A stretch of 64,000 bases of DNA from Oscillospiraceae bacterium (GTDB taxonomy: Bacteria; Bacillota; Clostridia; Oscillospirales; Oscillospiraceae). Each line of letters starts with the position of its first letter. Positions within the stretch are counted from its first letter, which is position 1. Below the pieces are notes generated by a model. That model was not told the origin of the DNA, did no database searches, and saw nothing but the letters and a program-made list of their open reading frames with translations. The position numbers were made by a program, and so were the translations under genes. Location of the stretch: the NCBI GenBank assembly GCA_016286665.1, contig JAEETX010000002.1:27128-91127 (forward strand), written 5' to 3'. Positions 3,967 to 43,399 of the stretch are shown piece by piece.

Positions 3967-6156
3967 TCAGAGCCGGAAACTTGCCTTCAGGACGGTGCTG
4001 CCGGTCAGCGCCTGCGTCCGCGCGTCCGGCTGCCCGCCGCCGACCCAAAGGGTATAGCTTCCCTTTTCCACCGCTCTCGTCCCATCCTCATGATAGGTGT
4101 AGAGGGCGTCCTGCCGGATGCTGAGCGTCAGGCGCTGCTTCTCTCCGGGCTTCAGGAACACGCTGCCCAGGGCGCAGAGATGCCAGCGGGGCTGCGTTTC
4201 GTCGCCGCCGTCCCAGCGGACGTAGGCCTGCACCACTTCCCTGCCGGGCATGGAGCCGGTGTTCTCCACGCTGACGGAGGCTTCCACGTTCTCTCCGGCC
4301 TCAACCTGCAGGCCATCGTACCCAAAGCTCGTGTAGCTGAGCCCGTAACCGAAGGGATAGAGCGGCTCTCCTTCAAAATAGCGATAGGTGCGGTTTTTCA
4401 TGGCGTAGTCCGTGAAGGGCGGCAGGTCCTCGATATCGCGGTAGAAAGTGACCGGCAGCCTGCCGGAGGGGCTGAAGCGGCCGAAGAGCAGCTCGCCTAC
4501 CGCCTGACCTCCCAGCGCGCCGGGATACCATGCCTGCACCAGCGCGCCGATGCGCGCGTCCTCCAGACTGAGGGCGCTGCCGGAGAGCAGCACCACCACC
4601 GTGGGCTTCCCCAGGTCCAGTACGTCTTCCAGAAGCCTGCGCTGATTGGAGGGTAGCAGCAGCGTCTTCTTATCGCCGCCGGCGAATTCATCGCAGCTGT
4701 AGCCGCCCATCATTTCCTCGCCCTCCACGCTTTCATCCAGGCCCAGCACCAGCACCACGGCTTCGGATTCCTCCGCCATCGCCAGGGCTTCCGCTTCCCG
4801 GTCCCCGTGGCCCATAAGCTCCATCAGATTGAAGGTCGGGGCGACGTTCTCAAAGAAGGATACGGAGGCGTCGTCACCGGTCCTGCTCTCCCGAGCGGCA
4901 GGCTGCTGATACGGCGTCAGCTCGCAGCCCACGCCGTAGCGGATGCGCACCGTATCCCCCGCGGCGCGGCGGATGCCGTCCAGCACGGTGATATACTCCG
5001 AAGCTTCGCCGTGGTAGTTTCCTTTCAGGGCGGAAATGCTCATCGCATTGGGGCCCAGAACGGCGATGGAGCGGAATTTGCCGGTGAGAGGAAGCAGCCC
5101 GTCGTTTTTCAGAAGGACCAGGGATTCTCTGGCGGCTTTCAGGTTCAGATAGCGGTGCTTGGGGCTGTCCAGCAGATCATGATTCACCCGCAGGGATTCC
5201 GGCGTCTCATACAGCCCCAGCCGCAGGCGCTGGGTCATCACATGGATGCAGGCCTTGTCGATATCCGCTTCCGTGATCAGGCCCCGTTCCAGGGATTCCG
5301 ACAGGTTCATATAGACAAAGCCCAGATTCATGTCGCAGCCATGCTTCAGGGCCAGGGCGGCGGACTCCGCAGCGTCCTTCGTGACCTTGTGGCCGGTGTG
5401 GAAATCCTTCAGCGCCGTAAAATCGGAAACGACCATGCCCTCGAAATCCCACGTCTCCCGAAGGACCTTCTGCAGGAGCAGCTCCGAGGCGCAGCAGGGC
5501 TCGTCCAGCGTGCGGTTATATGCGCCCATGACCTGTGCGACCCGCGCTTCCTTTACCGCCGCTTCAAAGGCGGGCAGATAGGTCTCATGCAGGTCCTTGG
5601 CGCTGACGACGGCGTTGAATTCATGGCGGATGGGCTCCGGCCCCGAATGGACCGCGTAGTGCTTGGCGCAGGCGGCGGTGAGCAGATAATCCGGATCGTC
5701 CCCCTGGAGGCCACGGATATACCGGACGCCCATGCGGCTTGTGAGCCAGGGGTCCTCTCCGTAGGTTTCCTGGCCGCGGCCCCAGCGGGGATCGCGGAAG
5801 ATGTTGATATTGGGGCTGTAGAGGCTCAGCCCCTTGAACAGGTCACGAACGCCGTGGGAAGAATACTGTTCATATTTGATCCTGGCCTCCTTTCCCACGG
5901 CTCTCCCGACCTCCCCAACCAGTTCGGGATCGAAGGTCGAAGCAAGGCCGATGCTCTGGGGGAACATGGTGGCGGTGCCCTCTCTGGCCGCCCCGTGGAG
6001 CGCTTCGCTCCACCAGTCCATTTCCGGAATGCCCAGCCGCTCCAGAGCGGGAGCGGCGGAAATGATCTGTGCGATCTTCTCCTCCGTGGTCATGCGGGAA
6101 ACAAGGTCTTCCGCCCGGCGGGCAAAGCTCAGGCTTTTATCCAGATAAGCTTCCAT
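3967..6156 (-). CDS. Glycoside hydrolase family 3 (beta-glucosidase/beta-xylosidase-like)
   Basis: PRWGRGQETYGEDPWL, KHYAVHSGPEP, VVSDF nucleophile motif, C-terminal fibronectin-III-like domain. Confidence 0.94.
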   Translation of the reverse strand: MEAYLDKSLSFARRAEDLVSRMTTEEKIAQIISAAPALERLGIPEMDWWSEALHGAAREGTATMFPQSIGLASTFDPELVGEVGRAVGKEARIKYEQYSSHGVRDLFKGLSLYSPNINIFRDPRWGRGQETYGEDPWLTSRMGVRYIRGLQGDDPDYLLTAACAKHYAVHSGPEPIRHEFNAVVSAKDLHETYLPAFEAAVKEARVAQVMGAYNRTLDEPCCASELLLQKVLRETWDFEGMVVSDFTALKDFHTGHKVTKDAAESAALALKHGCDMNLGFVYMNLSESLERGLITEADIDKACIHVMTQRLRLGLYETPESLRVNHDLLDSPKHRYLNLKAARESLVLLKNDGLLPLTGKFRSIAVLGPNAMSISALKGNYHGEASEYITVLDGIRRAAGDTVRIRYGVGCELTPYQQPAARESRTGDDASVSFFENVAPTFNLMELMGHGDREAEALAMAEESEAVVLVLGLDESVEGEEMMGGYSCDEFAGGDKKTLLLPSNQRRLLEDVLDLGKPTVVVLLSGSALSLEDARIGALVQAWYPGALGGQAVGELLFGRFSPSGRLPVTFYRDIEDLPPFTDYAMKNRTYRYFEGEPLYPFGYGLSYTSFGYDGLQVEAGENVEASVSVENTGSMPGREVVQAYVRWDGGDETQPRWHLCALGSVFLKPGEKQRLTLSIRQDALYTYHEDGTRAVEKGSYTLWVGGGQPDARTQALTGSTVLKASFRL

Positions 6157-6194
6157 ATCATTTCTCCTTTTTTGGAATCATACGACCATAGAAA

Positions 6195-6220
6195 ACGGGC
6201 CTGCCGGTCGGCAGGCCCGT
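6195..6220 (-). terminator. Rho-independent terminator of the 6231-6752 gene
   Basis: ACGGGCCTGCCG/CGGCAGGCCCGT stem followed by TTTTCT on the minus strand. Confidence 0.75.
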
Positions 6221-6230
6221 GTAGTCTTTC

Positions 6231-6752
6231 TCAGATATCGCTGTAACGCTGTCCGCCCTTTTTCTGAACTTCCAGATCCTTGGGGATGTTGTTGCGGGTC
6301 TGGAAAGCGGCGATGCCCTTCTCCATTTCCTGATAATAGGAATCCTGAATCTTCACGGTCTTGGAGCCGTCCTTGAAGATGAACTCGGCGGAGGTGTTGT
6401 TCACACGGGCAGCACGGGGGTTCATGGGGTTGATCCCGGGGAACTGCCAGATGATGGCGCGCACTTCGTCGGCGCGGATCACCCGCTGATTGAACAGGTT
6501 CTGCTGCACAAGCGTATCCTCATAGATGTCCAGACGCAGAGAGAAGATCTGACGCAGCAGCAGAGCAAGAACGATGACGAAGATGATGCCCGCGGCAATC
6601 GCAGCGCCCATCAGATTCCTGCCGCCCTTCAGCGTGGTAACAAGACATGCCACGAAAACGACGGCGAACAGGATCGTCAGCATAACAAAGGGAAGATGGA
6701 TCATGCCGGAGAGCTTGAGCGTAGTGTACTTTTTCCCGTATTTTTCTTCCAT
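6231..6752 (-). CDS. Membrane protein with two N-terminal TM segments and a PH-like C-terminal region; function unknown
   Basis: Good RBS (GGAGG) and a TTGACT-17-TATATT promoter; hydrophobic N-terminus then beta-rich segment. Confidence 0.7.
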   Translation of the reverse strand: MEEKYGKKYTTLKLSGMIHLPFVMLTILFAVVFVACLVTTLKGGRNLMGAAIAAGIIFVIVLALLLRQIFSLRLDIYEDTLVQQNLFNQRVIRADEVRAIIWQFPGINPMNPRAARVNNTSAEFIFKDGSKTVKIQDSYYQEMEKGIAAFQTRNNIPKDLEVQKKGGQRYSDI

Positions 6753-37011: not shown

Positions 37012-37601
37012 TCGCGCAGAAGGATTCTCAGCTGACGCAGAAGCAGCCAGATCCCGCAGAGGAACAGCTGCGGACTGCAAAGGATCCCCAGGGTGAGTGC
37101 GGCAAGGGCCGAGAGCAGGCCGAGCAGGCAGGAGAGCTTCTCCTGCCGGTCGACCGTCAGGAAACGCGGCAGGAGGCAGCGCAGCATCCGCTCGCCGTCC
37201 AGGCCGTAGGAAGGCAGAAGGTTGACAAGGCTGAGCGTCAGGCTCATGCCCGCGGCTGTGCGAAGGAATCCGCTCCCGGCGGAGCGAAGGCACAGCCAGA
37301 GGAGAAAACCCGCAGCCGGTCCCGCCGCGGCGCGCGCCAGCTCCTGTCGGGGACCCGGCTCCCCTCCGGCGCAGTAAAGGCATGCGCCGGAGATATCCAG
37401 GATCAGCCGGCGCGGAAGGCTCCCCTGTCCCAGGATCAGGGCCAGGTGCCCCAGTTCATGCGCTGCCGCGCCGATCGCGGCGGCTGCCAGCGCTTCTCCG
37501 CCGCAGAAAAACCCCGTCAGAGACAGGAGAAGGAGAAAACCGCCGCTGAGCTCCAGCCGGAAGACGCATTCCTTTTCCGGCAGAGACATTTCGTTTGACA
37601 T
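37008..37601 (-). CDS. M50/S2P-like membrane zinc metallopeptidase
   Basis: HELGH in a TM segment plus NLLPSYGLDG second site. Start 37601 (MSNEMSLPEKE). Confidence 0.8.
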   Translation of the reverse strand: MSNEMSLPEKECVFRLELSGGFLLLLSLTGFFCGGEALAAAAIGAAAHELGHLALILGQGSLPRRLILDISGACLYCAGGEPGPRQELARAAAGPAAGFLLWLCLRSAGSGFLRTAAGMSLTLSLVNLLPSYGLDGERMLRCLLPRFLTVDRQEKLSCLLGLLSALAALTLGILCSPQLFLCGIWLLLRQLRILLRD

Positions 37602-37622
37602 ACCGTCGCATCCTGTTATAAT
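37595..37622 (+). promoter_or_regulatory. Candidate strong promoter of the tyrosine recombinase operon
   Basis: TTGACA - 16 bp - TATAAT; overlaps the start codon of the divergent peptidase gene. Confidence 0.8.
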
Positions 37623-37664
37623 ATAAGTTATTCCACTGGTTTGGGTATTCCCGGGGAGGGCAGC

Positions 37665-38666
37665 ATGGATTATCGGGACGAAGCGCCGGAGATCATCCGG
37701 GATTTCCTCAGCTATCACGAGGTCGTTCGGGGCCACTCCCGCAAGACCATCGATGAATACTATCTCGATCTGCGGACCTTTCTCCGCTTTCTGAAGCTTC
37801 GCCGCGGCCTCGCGCCGAAATCCACGCCCTTCGAGGAGATCGGCATCTCCGACGTGGACCTCACGTTTCTCGGCGCGCTCACCAAGACCGAGGTCTATGA
37901 TTTCATGAGCTTCCTCGGACGGGACCGGATAAAGAATCCCCAGAGCCGGGAGGCGGAATACGGTCTCTCCCCCGCTTCCCGCGCCCGGAAGCTGGCGACC
38001 CTTCGCTCGCTCTACAAATATCTGACGATCAAGACGGGCAAGCTGGAAAAGAATCCCCTGGACGGCTTTGATTCTCCCAAGCTCCGCCGCAGTCTGCCCA
38101 AGTATCTGAGCCTGGAGGAGAGCATTTCCCTCCTCAACAGCGTGGGCGGGCGCAATCCGGAGCGGGACCGCTGCATCCTCACCGTTTTTCTCAACTGCGG
38201 CCTGCGCATCAGCGAGCTCGTCGGCCTCAACCTCAGCGACGTCAGCGAGAACCGACTGCGGGTCGTGGGCAAGGGCGACCGGGAACGCGTCGTTTACATG
38301 AATCAGGCGGTGGCGGACGCCATCAACGCCTATCTCCCCCTGCGGAAGAAATACGGCACGGGGACGACGGCGGCGCTTTTCGTCTCCGAGCGGGGGGAAC
38401 GGATCGCCCGCAGCACGGTCCACCGGCTGGTGAAGGTGCACCTGGGGGAAGCGGGGCTGGAACAGGACGGCTACAGCGCCCACAAGCTGCGGCATACCGC
38501 GGCTACCCTGATGCTCCGCAACGGAGTGGATGTGCGCACCCTGCAGGAGCTGCTGGGCCATGAGCACCTGAACACCACGGAAATCTACACCCACATCGAA
38601 AACACGGACCTTCGGCAGGCCGCCGACGCGAATCCCCTGGCAAAATACAAACCGGAGAAAGGATAA
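37665..38666 (+). CDS. Tyrosine recombinase, XerC/XerD-like
   Basis: Catalytic LRISELVGL Arg, HKLRHTAATL, LLGH, TTEIYTHI Tyr; start MDYRDEAPEI at 37665. Confidence 0.95.
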   Translation: MDYRDEAPEIIRDFLSYHEVVRGHSRKTIDEYYLDLRTFLRFLKLRRGLAPKSTPFEEIGISDVDLTFLGALTKTEVYDFMSFLGRDRIKNPQSREAEYGLSPASRARKLATLRSLYKYLTIKTGKLEKNPLDGFDSPKLRRSLPKYLSLEESISLLNSVGGRNPERDRCILTVFLNCGLRISELVGLNLSDVSENRLRVVGKGDRERVVYMNQAVADAINAYLPLRKKYGTGTTAALFVSERGERIARSTVHRLVKVHLGEAGLEQDGYSAHKLRHTAATLMLRNGVDVRTLQELLGHEHLNTTEIYTHIENTDLRQAADANPLAKYKPEKG

Positions 38667-38677
38667 AAGAACATCTT

Positions 38678-40066
38678 ATGGTCTTTTCCAGCCTGCTGTT
38701 TCTCTTTTTCTATCTGCCGGTCACCCTGGCGATCTACTACCTTGCTCCGTCCCGCTGGCGGAATCTGTGGCTGTTCATCGTCAATCTCGTCTTCTACGGC
38801 TGGGGCGAACCCGTCTATGTGGCGCTGATGGTTTTTTCCATCGCCGTGAACTACGCTGCCGGTTATCTGGTGGACCTGCACAGGGACAAAGCAAAGCGCA
38901 TCCTGATCCTGAACGCCGTGATCAACCTGGGACTGCTGTTCTTCTTCAAATACTATGACTTTCTGGCGCTGAACCTGAGCCGGCTCCCCGGTCTCGGCTT
39001 TTTCCATCCCCTGGGCGTCACCCTGCCCATCGGCATTTCCTTTTACACCTTTCAGAATATGTCCTACCCCATCGACGTATGCCGCGGCGACGCCCGCTCC
39101 CAGCGGAGCTTCATCCGCTACGGGACCTATGTCGCGCTCTTTCCCCAGCTCATCGCCGGCCCCATCGTCCGCTACAAGGATATCGCCGATCAGCTGGATT
39201 CCCGGCGGGAAACAAAGGCGAAATTCGCCTCCGGCGTGGGCCGCTTCTGCATCGGACTGTCGAAAAAGGTCCTTCTGGCGAACAACATCGGCGCCCTGTG
39301 GGACGTTTACAAGGCCATGGACCCGGCTTCTCTCTCCGCGGCGGACGCCTGGCTGGGAGCGCTGGCTTTCACCTTTCAGATCTACTTCGACTTTTCCGGC
39401 TACAGCGACATGGCCATCGGTCTCGGGCGGATGCTGGGCTTCGACTTTGTGGAAAACTTCAACTATCCCTATATTTCCCGCAGCGTCACGGAATTCTGGC
39501 GGCGCTGGCATATCTCCCTTTCCACCTGGTTCCGGGACTATGTTTACATCCCCCTGGGCGGCAACCGCCGGGGAAAGGGCCGCCAGATCCTCAACCTGCT
39601 GATCGTCTGGACCCTCACCGGCATCTGGCACGGCGCCAGCTGGAATTTCCTCCTGTGGGGCCTGTATTACGCGCTCCTGCTGGTTCTGGAAAAGGTTTTC
39701 CTCTATGACAGGCTGATGAGGGCCCCCGGCTGGGTGGGGCATATCTACGCGCTGATCCTGGTGATCGTGGGCTGGGTGCTCTTCAGCGTGGAGGACCTTT
39801 CAAGCTGTATCCTCTATCTCCGCAGCATGTTCTTCGGCGGAGCGGGGCTCTGCTCCACCACCTTCCTCTACTATCTGCGCTCCTTCGCCCCCGGCATCGC
39901 CGTCATGATCCTGGCCTCCACGCCGCTGGCGAAGCGGCTGTACGCGTGCCTGCCGCAAAAGCTGTCGCGGGTTTTGAATCCGGTGCTGGTGCTGGCTTCC
40001 CTCCTCCTCTGCACCGCTTATCTCGTGGACAGCACCTATAATCCCTTCCTGTATTTCCGCTTTTGA
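38678..40066 (+). CDS. MBOAT family O-acyltransferase (AlgI/DltB-like)
   Basis: LPIGISFYTFQNMSYPIDVCRGD, FDFSGYSDMAIGLGRMLGFDFVENFNYPY, LTGIWHGASWNFLLWGLYYA. Confidence 0.96.
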   Translation: MVFSSLLFLFFYLPVTLAIYYLAPSRWRNLWLFIVNLVFYGWGEPVYVALMVFSIAVNYAAGYLVDLHRDKAKRILILNAVINLGLLFFFKYYDFLALNLSRLPGLGFFHPLGVTLPIGISFYTFQNMSYPIDVCRGDARSQRSFIRYGTYVALFPQLIAGPIVRYKDIADQLDSRRETKAKFASGVGRFCIGLSKKVLLANNIGALWDVYKAMDPASLSAADAWLGALAFTFQIYFDFSGYSDMAIGLGRMLGFDFVENFNYPYISRSVTEFWRRWHISLSTWFRDYVYIPLGGNRRGKGRQILNLLIVWTLTGIWHGASWNFLLWGLYYALLLVLEKVFLYDRLMRAPGWVGHIYALILVIVGWVLFSVEDLSSCILYLRSMFFGGAGLCSTTFLYYLRSFAPGIAVMILASTPLAKRLYACLPQKLSRVLNPVLVLASLLLCTAYLVDSTYNPFLYFRF

Positions 40067-40074
40067 GGTGACCG

Positions 40075-41196
40075 ATGAAGAAACAGAGCCGGGGCGTGCT
40101 GCCCGTGATCTTGTGTTTTGCGCTCTTTCTCGGCGCCGGGCTGCTCCTCCACCTCGCGCTGCCCGACCACAGCCGCAGCGAGAATGAAAACCGCATGCTG
40201 GCTTTCGCGCCGAAATTCACGCTGAAAACGCTGTTTTCCGGCGGCTTTACCGAGGATTTCGAGGATTACATCACCGATCAGTTCCCCTTTCGGGACAGCT
40301 GGCTGGATTTGAAATCGCGGACAGAGCGCCTCATGGGAAAGACGGAAAACAACGGCGTATTCTTCTGTCGGGAGGACACCCTCATTTCCCGCTTCCGGCC
40401 GCCGAAGGCTTCGGCGGTGGAGGGCGGCGTCCGGGCGGTGAACGCCCTGGCGGCAAACACCGGCATTCCCGTATGCCTGGCGCTGATCCCCTCGGCTGCG
40501 GAAATCTGGTCTGACCGGCTGCCCGCCAACGCCGACACCGCCGACCAGGCGGCGCTCATCCGAAGCATCTATGATGCGGTGGACGTGAAAACGGCGGATA
40601 TCCTCTCCGCGCTGCGGGAACACGCTTCGGAGAGCGTCTATTACCGCACGGACCACCACTGGACGACCCTGGGCGCTTATTACGGTTATGCCGCCACGGC
40701 GGCGGCCCTGGGCCTGACGCCCGGGAACCCGGAGGACTATCGGCCGGAAACCGTCAGCGATTCCTTCTACGGCACCGTCTATTCCTCCTCCGGCGTCCGA
40801 TGGGTGAAGCCGGACAGCATCCAGACCTTCGTTCCCGCGGGGGATGCGGAGCTGACGCGCTACGACACTTCGGAAGGGACCGTAAGCCCGATTTACGACG
40901 TCGGAAAGCTGGAAACCAAGGATAAATACAGTATGTTCCTGGGCGGGAACACCTCCCGGCTGGTGATCCGAACCGGCCATGCGGGCGGGAAGCTGCTGGT
41001 GATCCGGGATTCCTATGCCGACTGCGAGCTCCCTTTCTTTTTTGAACACTATTCGGAAATCCACGTGCTGGACCTGCGCTACTACCGGCAGAGCGTTTCC
41101 GCCTACGCCTCGGAAGGCGGCTTCGACGCGATCCTGGTCAGCTACAGTCTCGCCGATTTTGTCACCGATACTTCCGTATTTCTGATGGGTACCTGA
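40075..41196 (+). CDS. DHHW family protein (AlgJ/AlgX-like, partner of MBOAT)
   Basis: SRSENENRMLAFAPKFT...FEDYITDQFPFRD, YYRTDHHWTTLGAYYGY. Confidence 0.93.
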   Translation: MKKQSRGVLPVILCFALFLGAGLLLHLALPDHSRSENENRMLAFAPKFTLKTLFSGGFTEDFEDYITDQFPFRDSWLDLKSRTERLMGKTENNGVFFCREDTLISRFRPPKASAVEGGVRAVNALAANTGIPVCLALIPSAAEIWSDRLPANADTADQAALIRSIYDAVDVKTADILSALREHASESVYYRTDHHWTTLGAYYGYAATAAALGLTPGNPEDYRPETVSDSFYGTVYSSSGVRWVKPDSIQTFVPAGDAELTRYDTSEGTVSPIYDVGKLETKDKYSMFLGGNTSRLVIRTGHAGGKLLVIRDSYADCELPFFFEHYSEIHVLDLRYYRQSVSAYASEGGFDAILVSYSLADFVTDTSVFLMGT

Positions 41197-41219
41197 CCCT
41201 CGGACGGAAAGGAGAAACT

Positions 41220-42692
41220 ATGAAACGCAGCAATCATCCGGCGGAGAATCCCCTGACAGAACAACTGGTCCTTTTCTGCGCAGCCCTGGCGCTGGTGCTT
41301 CTGATCGTCGCCTGGGTCCTGAGCGGGAATGCGCTTATGCGGTTCATCCTCTCTGTCCTCAGCTTCCTCGTCTCTCTCTTTGCCCTCAAGGATGAGCTTC
41401 TCGCGGCCATCCGGGAAAAGGATCTGGGTTCCGGCCTTATTCTGCTGATCGTCTCAGGAATCATCTGCATCTGCACCGGAACGGCGGTCTATGCCGCTCT
41501 GGCGATGCTGATCCGGCTGCTCGCCGGTCTGGTGCTGCCCAGGCTGCGCGCCGGCGTCCTCCGTCTGCTGGATACGCGCCGTGAACTGAATCCCCTGAAG
41601 GAGAGCCTGCCCGCCGTTCAGACGAAGACCATTCTGGTGCATCCTCATGAACAGCTGCTGAAAAACTATCTGACCTATCTGATGGTCCTGCTGGCGGCCC
41701 TGGTCGCCATTCTCTCCGTCCTTCTCTCCGAGCTTTCCGTTGCGGACGCTCTGAGCAGAGCCGCCGTGATCCTCGCCCTGGGCGGCACCTTCCCGCTCTT
41801 TGCCGCCTTTCCCCTCAGCGACTATGCCGCCGTTCTCTGTGCCGGTGAATCCGGCGTTCTGTTCCGCAGGGACACCATCACCCGTCTCATGGGCCTGAAG
41901 CTTGCCTGTGTCAAAACGCAGGAGCCCGTTGACGTCGGCACCGCCGCCGTGTTCCCCGCAAGGCCGGAGGCTGTCGGCCCCGAGCTGATGCTGCGCCTGG
42001 CCGCCACCGCCTGCGCCGACACGGAGCTGGACGCTGCGGAGAAGCTGGCGGCCGTCAGCAAGAATACCAGCAGCGCCGATATCGAACGCAAGGTGCTCCC
42101 TGGGCTGGGCGTCGTCGCCCGCGTCAAGGATATCACGGTGCTGGCGGGCAGTGCCGAATTCATGAAGCGCTCCGGCCTCTCCGTTCTCCCCTTCCCCGAA
42201 AACGCCCAGGTCCTCCACATGGGCGTCAACGGTCACTATGTGGGCTGCATCGACTTTTCCGAATCTCAGCAGGCCGAAGACTGCGAGAAGGCCTTGGACA
42301 GCGCCGGCTTCTTCCGCTTCAAGGATGCGCTGGAAGCAAGCGAAAAGCGGCTTCCTGGAGAAAAGCTCCTCTATGTCCGCCCGGCTTCGGAGCACCTCTC
42401 CGGCCAGAAGGACGACCTTTCCGCTGCCGCCGGCGTTCTGGACCGCTTCGACCAGATCACCATGGAACGCGCCGGACGTGCCGGCGTCGCCGCCCTGATG
42501 GAGCAGTTGGGCTGCGCCAGGCTGGGCCGCAAGGGCATCCTGCTGGTCGCCCTGATCGTGAAAGCCTTCCTGTTCCTGCTGACGGTTTTCGGCATCTGCC
42601 CCCTGTGGCTTGCGGTCCTGCTGGAAACGGCGGCGGTCGCCTTCACCTATCGCTACTGCGTCCGGCTTCTGGATTATCTCAGCAAATACTGA
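41220..42692 (+). CDS. Membrane protein resembling a P1B-type (HMA) ATPase but lacking the catalytic motifs
   Basis: LSRAAVILALGGTFPLFAAFPLSDYAAVLCAGESGVLFRRDTITRLMGLKLACVKTQEPVD aligns by eye with the CPC/DKTGTLT region of CadA-like ATPases; also matches N-domain and last-TM regions. Confidence 0.65.
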   Translation: MKRSNHPAENPLTEQLVLFCAALALVLLIVAWVLSGNALMRFILSVLSFLVSLFALKDELLAAIREKDLGSGLILLIVSGIICICTGTAVYAALAMLIRLLAGLVLPRLRAGVLRLLDTRRELNPLKESLPAVQTKTILVHPHEQLLKNYLTYLMVLLAALVAILSVLLSELSVADALSRAAVILALGGTFPLFAAFPLSDYAAVLCAGESGVLFRRDTITRLMGLKLACVKTQEPVDVGTAAVFPARPEAVGPELMLRLAATACADTELDAAEKLAAVSKNTSSADIERKVLPGLGVVARVKDITVLAGSAEFMKRSGLSVLPFPENAQVLHMGVNGHYVGCIDFSESQQAEDCEKALDSAGFFRFKDALEASEKRLPGEKLLYVRPASEHLSGQKDDLSAAAGVLDRFDQITMERAGRAGVAALMEQLGCARLGRKGILLVALIVKAFLFLLTVFGICPLWLAVLLETAAVAFTYRYCVRLLDYLSKY

Positions 42693-42705
42693 TGCGTCAG
42701 AACGG

Positions 42706-42735
42706 ACCGGCGGCAGCCAAAAGGCTGCCGCCGGT
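42706..42735. terminator. Bidirectional hairpin between convergent genes
   Basis: ACCGGCGGCAGCC-AAAA-GGCTGCCGCCGGT, 13-bp perfect stem. Confidence 0.6.
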
Positions 42736-42739
42736 TAGT

Positions 42740-43399
42740 TCATGCGCAGAACCTGTGCTTTCCGATGGTGAGGATCAGGGGCCGGGACCAGATCCAGGCG
42801 CTGGTGGCCGTATGGGGATTGAAATAGTAGATCGCGCCGCCGGTAGGGTCCCAGCCGTTCAGGGCGTCGTCCGCCGCCCGGTAGGCGCTCTCCGCCACCG
42901 GCTGGTTGAACTGGCCGTCGGTGATGCAGCTGAAGGCTCCGGACTGATAGATCACGCCGGGGATGGTGTTGGGAAAAGAAGGGTGCCTGACCCGGTTGAG
43001 CACCACCGCGCCTACCGCCACCTGCCCCACATAGGGTTCTCCCCTGGCCTCCGCGGAAATCAGCCGCGCCAGCAGCGCGCGGGTATTCCTGTCCGCGCTG
43101 GCGGACGGAACCCGGATGCCCAGGGCCGCCAGGGTCTTTTCGCCGCAGATGCCGTCCGCGACGAGCCCCTTTGCCCGCTGAAATTTCTTTACCGCCGCCG
43201 TGGTGCGGCTGCCGTAGATGCCGTCCACCGTGTAGGTATAATACCCCGCGCTTTTCAGCGTCTGCTGGATTTTCGTGACCACGCTGCCGCTGGATCCCTG
43301 CCTGTAGGCCACCGCCTCCGCCCGCTGGCTGAAGGAGATCAGCAGGATATTGACGAGAAACAAAGCGGCCAGGGCCGCCGTCAGTTTTGCTTTTTTCAT
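42740..43399 (-). CDS. sleB: Spore cortex-lytic enzyme, SleB-like
   Basis: N-terminal TM, PG_binding_1 domain, hydrolase_2 domain LISAEARGEPYVGQVAVGAVVLNRVRHPSFPNTIPGVIYQSGAF. Confidence 0.92.
   Translation of the reverse strand: MKKAKLTAALAALFLVNILLISFSQRAEAVAYRQGSSGSVVTKIQQTLKSAGYYTYTVDGIYGSRTTAAVKKFQRAKGLVADGICGEKTLAALGIRVPSASADRNTRALLARLISAEARGEPYVGQVAVGAVVLNRVRHPSFPNTIPGVIYQSGAFSCITDGQFNQPVAESAYRAADDALNGWDPTGGAIYYFNPHTATSAWIWSRPLILTIGKHRFCA

Follow-up and report, generated by a model that had tools for sequence, protein, structure and literature searches.

Results

A P1B-ATPase-like gene closes an MBOAT-DHHW operon

The window, by which we mean the whole 64,000-nucleotide stretch of DNA analysed here, contains the operon XerD-MBOAT-DHHW-P, in which the first gene presumably encodes a member of the XerD family and the last gene, P, is separated from DHHW by 23 bases (Table 1). 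The reading frame of P is intact from ATG to stop and encodes 490 amino acids, exactly where the initial annotation had placed it. Downstream of P, before the convergent SleB gene, lies a hairpin that probably acts as a two-way terminator.

Alignment with intact P1B ATPases placed KTQEP of P at the DKTGT site, so that the phosphorylated Asp is a Lys here, and GTF at the metal-binding CPC; neither the HP motif of the N domain nor the GDGxND motif of the P domain was present in P. The initial annotation had already reported GTF for CPC, VKTQE at the phosphorylation site and the missing GDGxND, all of which the alignment bears out. It had also noted that TGE is missing, which is correct but understates the loss: in both the alignment and the profile comparison, the entire actuator domain of about 100 residues is gone. 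Where P1B-2 ATPases have their M5 Lys and M6 Asp, P has K448 and E469, the acid having changed from Asp to Glu. An AlphaFold model of P, built from an alignment of only two sequences, had a pLDDT of 39, too low for it to be usable.

Table 1. Features of the P operon and parts of protein P, in window positions.
Feature	Position	Strand	Basis
Promoter-like TTGACA-16-TATAAT (12/12), TG before the -10, upstream of XerD	37595..37622	+	Consensus match only
XerD-like tyrosine recombinase (presumed), first operon gene	37641..38666	+	Neighbour in relatives too
MBOAT O-acyltransferase	38678..40066	+	PF03062, E 6.5e-35
DHHW (AlgX/PatB1-like) acetyltransferase	40075..41196	+	PF14286, E 2e-33
Ribosome-binding site AAAGGAGA	41208..41215	+	4 bases before the ATG of P
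Pseudo-P1B-ATPase P, 490 aa	41220..42692	+	Intact ORF; P1B profile match; dN/dS
Helices MA-M2, residues 14-118	41259..41573	+	Alignment with intact P1B; borders approximate
Stump of about 29 residues in place of the actuator domain	41574..41660	+	Gap of about 100 residues against intact P1B
Helices M3-M4, residues 148-205	41661..41834	+	Alignment
GTF, residues 189-191, aligned to metal-binding CPC	41784..41792	+	Alignment with intact P1B
KTQEP, residues 232-236, aligned to DKTGT	41913..41927	+	Alignment with intact P1B
N (nucleotide-binding) domain, residues 246-345; relative constraint up in dead forms	41955..42254	+	Holds Y340 and G342
C-terminal-half remnant of the P domain, residues 346-432, without GDGxND	42255..42515	+	Alignment
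Helices M5-M6, residues 433-490	42516..42689	+	Alignment
K448, equivalent of ZntA K693	42561..42563	+	Alignment of dead forms
E469, at the ZntA D714 position	42624..42626	+	Alignment of dead forms
Hairpin between P and the convergent SleB gene	42700..42741		14-pair stem plus 4 outer pairs, z -7.5

P is related to zinc/cadmium P1B-2 ATPases

As a single sequence, P gave no match in a Pfam scan, only chance matches in a phmmer search of the PDB, and a weak match to NCBIfam TIGR01525 (E 0.002; 17 bits, with a family cut-off of 346 bits). A profile of seven window-type proteins aligned to one intact P1B ATPase over 461 columns with an hhalign probability of 99% and an E-value of 8e-18, the largest gap being the actuator domain, and the sole match of a window-type profile in the PDB was ZntA (4UMV, E 2e-11). 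Direct searches of related genomes returned full-length homologs of about 490 residues first and other P1B ATPases after them, with the nearest intact pumps matching P at E 1e-12 to 1e-13 and partly degenerate forms down to 9e-19. The profile, direct-search and PDB matches together settle the homology by sequence, at a level far above chance, and the P1B-like layout that the initial annotation had judged by eye is thereby upheld. At the sequence level, P descends from zinc/cadmium P1B-2 ATPases and is related to them along its full length. Compared with ZntA and CadA (P1B-2; TIGR01512/TIGR01525; PDB 4UMV), it shares the helix order, the N domain, the M5 Lys and the M6 acid, but has no actuator domain, CPC, DKTGT, HP or GDGxND.

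Close homologs are dead and under purifying selection

Direct search yielded six full-length homologs, every one of them dead and without an actuator domain; five come from the same genus (73, 57, 34, 31 and 31% identity to P) and one from another genus (30%). The genomes compared are mostly fragmented drafts, one relative being a Ruminococcaceae metagenome assembly, RUG14053. No close homolog of P keeps DKTGT, and the nearest approach among operon members is DKTGS, in a protein of a different genus (locus L197). By the Nei-Gojobori method, dN/dS of P was 0.06-0.38 in 14 pairs, including 0.16 between the window and its nearest homolog; values for the neighbours in countable pairs were 0.05-0.18 for MBOAT and 0.07-0.25 for DHHW, so that constraint on P appears somewhat looser. 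Recent decay is excluded because six homologs are dead, dN/dS is low, DKTGT is missing from the close homologs, and P sits at the end of an operon with a strong ribosome-binding site and a hairpin. An assembly error is likewise rejected, since the form recurs across many separate genomes. The initial annotation had called P a pseudoenzyme, which these homologs, the purifying selection and a stepwise link to intact pumps all support.

Catalysis was lost in parallel at linked loci

From neighbourhoods in relatives, mostly of the same bacterial family, we gathered 82 P1B-like proteins, comprising 40 intact and 41 dead forms and one that was set aside (L147, with GEGLND for GDGIND, which was displayed with the intact proteins in the trees). 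Most stand at two linked loci, and their forms grade from intact pumps to actuator-less proteins. Two settings recur among the dead forms, one behind MBOAT-DHHW and the other directly downstream of a gene that we take from its sequence to be class II fructose-bisphosphate aldolase (fba), often with XerD adjoining. Intact pumps also follow fba, at L107 and at L103, where convergent DHHW, MBOAT and XerD genes come next; genus g74 (L102, L139-L141) has the gene order of L103, but its P1B is a dead full-length form. At L197 (G008), the XerD-MBOAT-DHHW operon contains a 648-residue P1B that keeps its actuator, TGE and CPC and has DKTGS for DKTGT and GNGIGN for GDGIND, so that this operon probably carried an almost intact pump before the deep losses occurred. 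Scores against TIGR01525 were 528 bits for intact L103, 335 for L197, 295 for L038, 291 for L102, 287 for L081, 158 for L039 and 17 for the window. The genome of the window has its own intact P1B elsewhere (L174), so that transport is covered.

The dead forms, together with a few intact ones, formed a subclade apart from the other intact P1B ATPases in three trees (SH-aLRT 82 and 89; bootstrap 91). Within it, well-supported branches separated the MBOAT-linked from the fba-linked dead forms, and intact L103 fell with the latter. Well-supported branches require a minimum of two to three switches between the intact and the dead state, and loss of the actuator takes about six steps on the tree; the branches are long, which makes the counts rough, and attraction could explain part of the grouping. 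Catalysis has thus been lost in parallel, at least two to three times.

Constraint has moved to the N domain and M5-M6

Across the 41 dead proteins, Y340, G342 and G458 are invariant, A261, D399 and K448 are kept in 40 and W463 in 39. The M6 acid at the position of E469 is Asp or Glu in 40 of the 41, with a single protein, L143, being the exception both there and at K448; CPC is kept in ten. In ZntA, the corresponding K693 and D714 are joined in the E2-Pi state by a salt bridge, which presumably keeps zinc from flowing back (PMC6305203).

Intact pumps show their lowest conservation in the N domain, but this domain is among the most conserved parts of the dead forms, in which conservation of the P domain is down. 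The ratio of N-domain to P-domain identity was 0.69 (0.58-0.84) and 0.78 (0.63-0.97) in two intact sets that share members, and 1.66 (1.35-2.06) and 1.42 (1.17-1.72) in two dead clades, with approximate region borders and with intervals that take columns as independent. In dead forms, constraint has shifted away from the P domain and towards the N domain and M5-M6.

Discussion

Because it has no phosphorylated Asp, actuator domain, GDGxND, HP or CPC, P cannot run a phosphorylation cycle, and it is very probably a membrane pseudoenzyme, conserved as such and derived from a zinc/cadmium exporter of the P1B-2 ATPase group. Pseudoenzymes such as pseudokinases keep a fold and lose catalytic residues while the gene stays under selection, and P appears to be alike in all three respects. 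Since the loss is repeated in relatives with the gene still intact, an old pump fold seems to have been put to a new job.

We propose that the ancestral pump probably stood at a locus with xerD, mboat, dhhw and fba, that in some lineages it came to follow MBOAT and DHHW within a single operon, and that several lineages lost catalysis in parallel while retaining the gene. Held in place by the retained Lys-Asp/Glu pair, the membrane bundle may anchor the N domain, which in turn would bind a partner protein or ligand. The constraint patterns, in which selection keeps an N domain on a membrane anchor, favour a membrane-anchored scaffold or sensor, an assignment that we make tentatively and at somewhat less than an even chance. 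The shared end point of the parallel losses further suggests a second role already present in the ancestral pump; the full proposal, that a P-type ATPase at one locus turned several times in parallel into a non-pumping scaffold or sensor with the former nucleotide-binding domain as its working part, is a shade more tentative still.

A special case of the scaffold reading would make P an accessory subunit of an MBOAT-DHHW O-acetylation machine, its bundle lying beside MBOAT and its N domain regulating or docking MBOAT. Earlier work ties MBOAT/DHHW pairs to the O-acetylation of polysaccharide in the envelope (PMC9487903, PMC7710045), and the initial annotation had suggested a role in envelope acylation. 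Same-strand MBOAT-DHHW-P arrangements in five genera speak for such a role: XerD-MBOAT-DHHW-P with short gaps in the genus of the window, g8 and g80, MBOAT-DHHW-P in g95, and, in g3, both XerD-MBOAT-DHHW-P with the near-intact P1B of L197 and XerD-DHHW-P (L093). In addition, the lone congener without P, G006, is also without DHHW, MBOAT and the XerD ortholog, with SleB-ThrS present on a 130 kb contig, although this is one event in one draft that is 82% complete. Against a general role, the company of MBOAT and DHHW is usual in the clade of the window but not in the fba-linked sister clade, where dead forms in other genera often have neither gene adjacent; G107, a 97% complete genome, carries a dead form and gave no MBOAT hit at E 1e-30, and at L103 and in g74 the P gene faces DHHW convergently and is not part of its operon. 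The persistence of related dead forms next to fba lowers the case for a function in acylation only. An O-acetylation tie is plausible within the clade of the window and is not general, and we regard the subunit reading as rather unlikely.

Four further readings compete with the favoured one. A transporter turned sensor, in which the dead pump would signal the presence of a metal or nucleotide to its partners, would fit genus g118 (L081, L082, L084), in which fba, P, a response regulator and a histidine kinase follow each other on one strand, the P-response regulator-histidine kinase order at L040, and the retained glycines of the N-domain nucleotide loop (G297 in 39 and G310 in 37 of 41). Most members, P of the window included, have no adjoining two-component genes, L086 and L087 have them on the opposite strand, the nucleotide-binding His of HP is lost in 38 of 41 and CPC in 31 of 41, and we consider this reading improbable. 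An ATP-independent ion facilitator or channel could use the nearly always retained K448 and D/E469, yet most dead forms have lost CPC, and the Lys-Asp salt bridge of ZntA closes the exit path (PMC6305203), which better fits a structural role; such a channel is very unlikely. We give equally little credence to slow decay of an unneeded pump under weak selection. Fast divergence, with dN/dS reaching 0.38, and graded motif loss would agree with it, but this reading is already disfavoured by dN/dS values that stay far under 1 in every one of the 14 pairs, by open frames in the members read whole and by specific columns that are invariant across 41 dead proteins, and constraint on the N domain has risen relative to the P domain and has not been lost evenly. 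As for a pump still active through unorthodox chemistry, all seven window-type proteins share D369, which lies close to where the TGD Asp stands; however, even within the window-type clade the residue at the phosphorylation site varies among K, T, E, D, R, Q and S, and P has no actuator, which makes activity scarcely credible.

P-type ATPases are generally treated as enzymes, and our literature search, in which coverage of subscription papers was incomplete, found no P-type ATPase pseudoenzyme. The genes beside P belong to the MBOAT/DHHW families of PatA1/PatB1, CcsH/CcsI and AlgI-AlgX, with the difference that the third gene here is a dead P1B, a component of which the available portions of the sources make no mention (PMC9487903, PMC7710045). 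Across related genera, forms that are intact, half-broken or fully dead share a locus or occupy linked ones, and they provide a natural series for asking what the fold can do without catalysis. They also carry a warning for annotation: less degenerate dead members pass general P-type ATPase models, as L081 does under TIGR01494 (91 bits; cut-off 62.3), and would be named as pumps.

Several further arrangements were seen among the relatives. On the strand of P, an OmpR-type regulator and a histidine kinase follow it at L081:4491-8960, L082:1743-6234, L084:4775-9429 and L040:2098-6116. In g95, a metallo-beta-lactamase-fold gene comes after MBOAT-DHHW-P (L080:6376-7206, L085:6708-7538), and G033 has two fba copies (L041, L045), and behind each of them stands a dead P1B that has CPC but no actuator. 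Outside both loci, L143 (G135, position 2596) encodes a dead full-length P1B with DKAGT and GSGADD that has also lost the M5 Lys and M6 Asp, which makes it a helpful point of comparison. Among the matches listed in an order-wide search, the sole actuator-less form outside the family was L159 (G494, 4994-6514), a dead P1B of 507 residues from another taxonomic family with EKSGV and YPS, in which the genome search flagged one in-frame TAA and which keeps the M5 Lys and M6 Asp.
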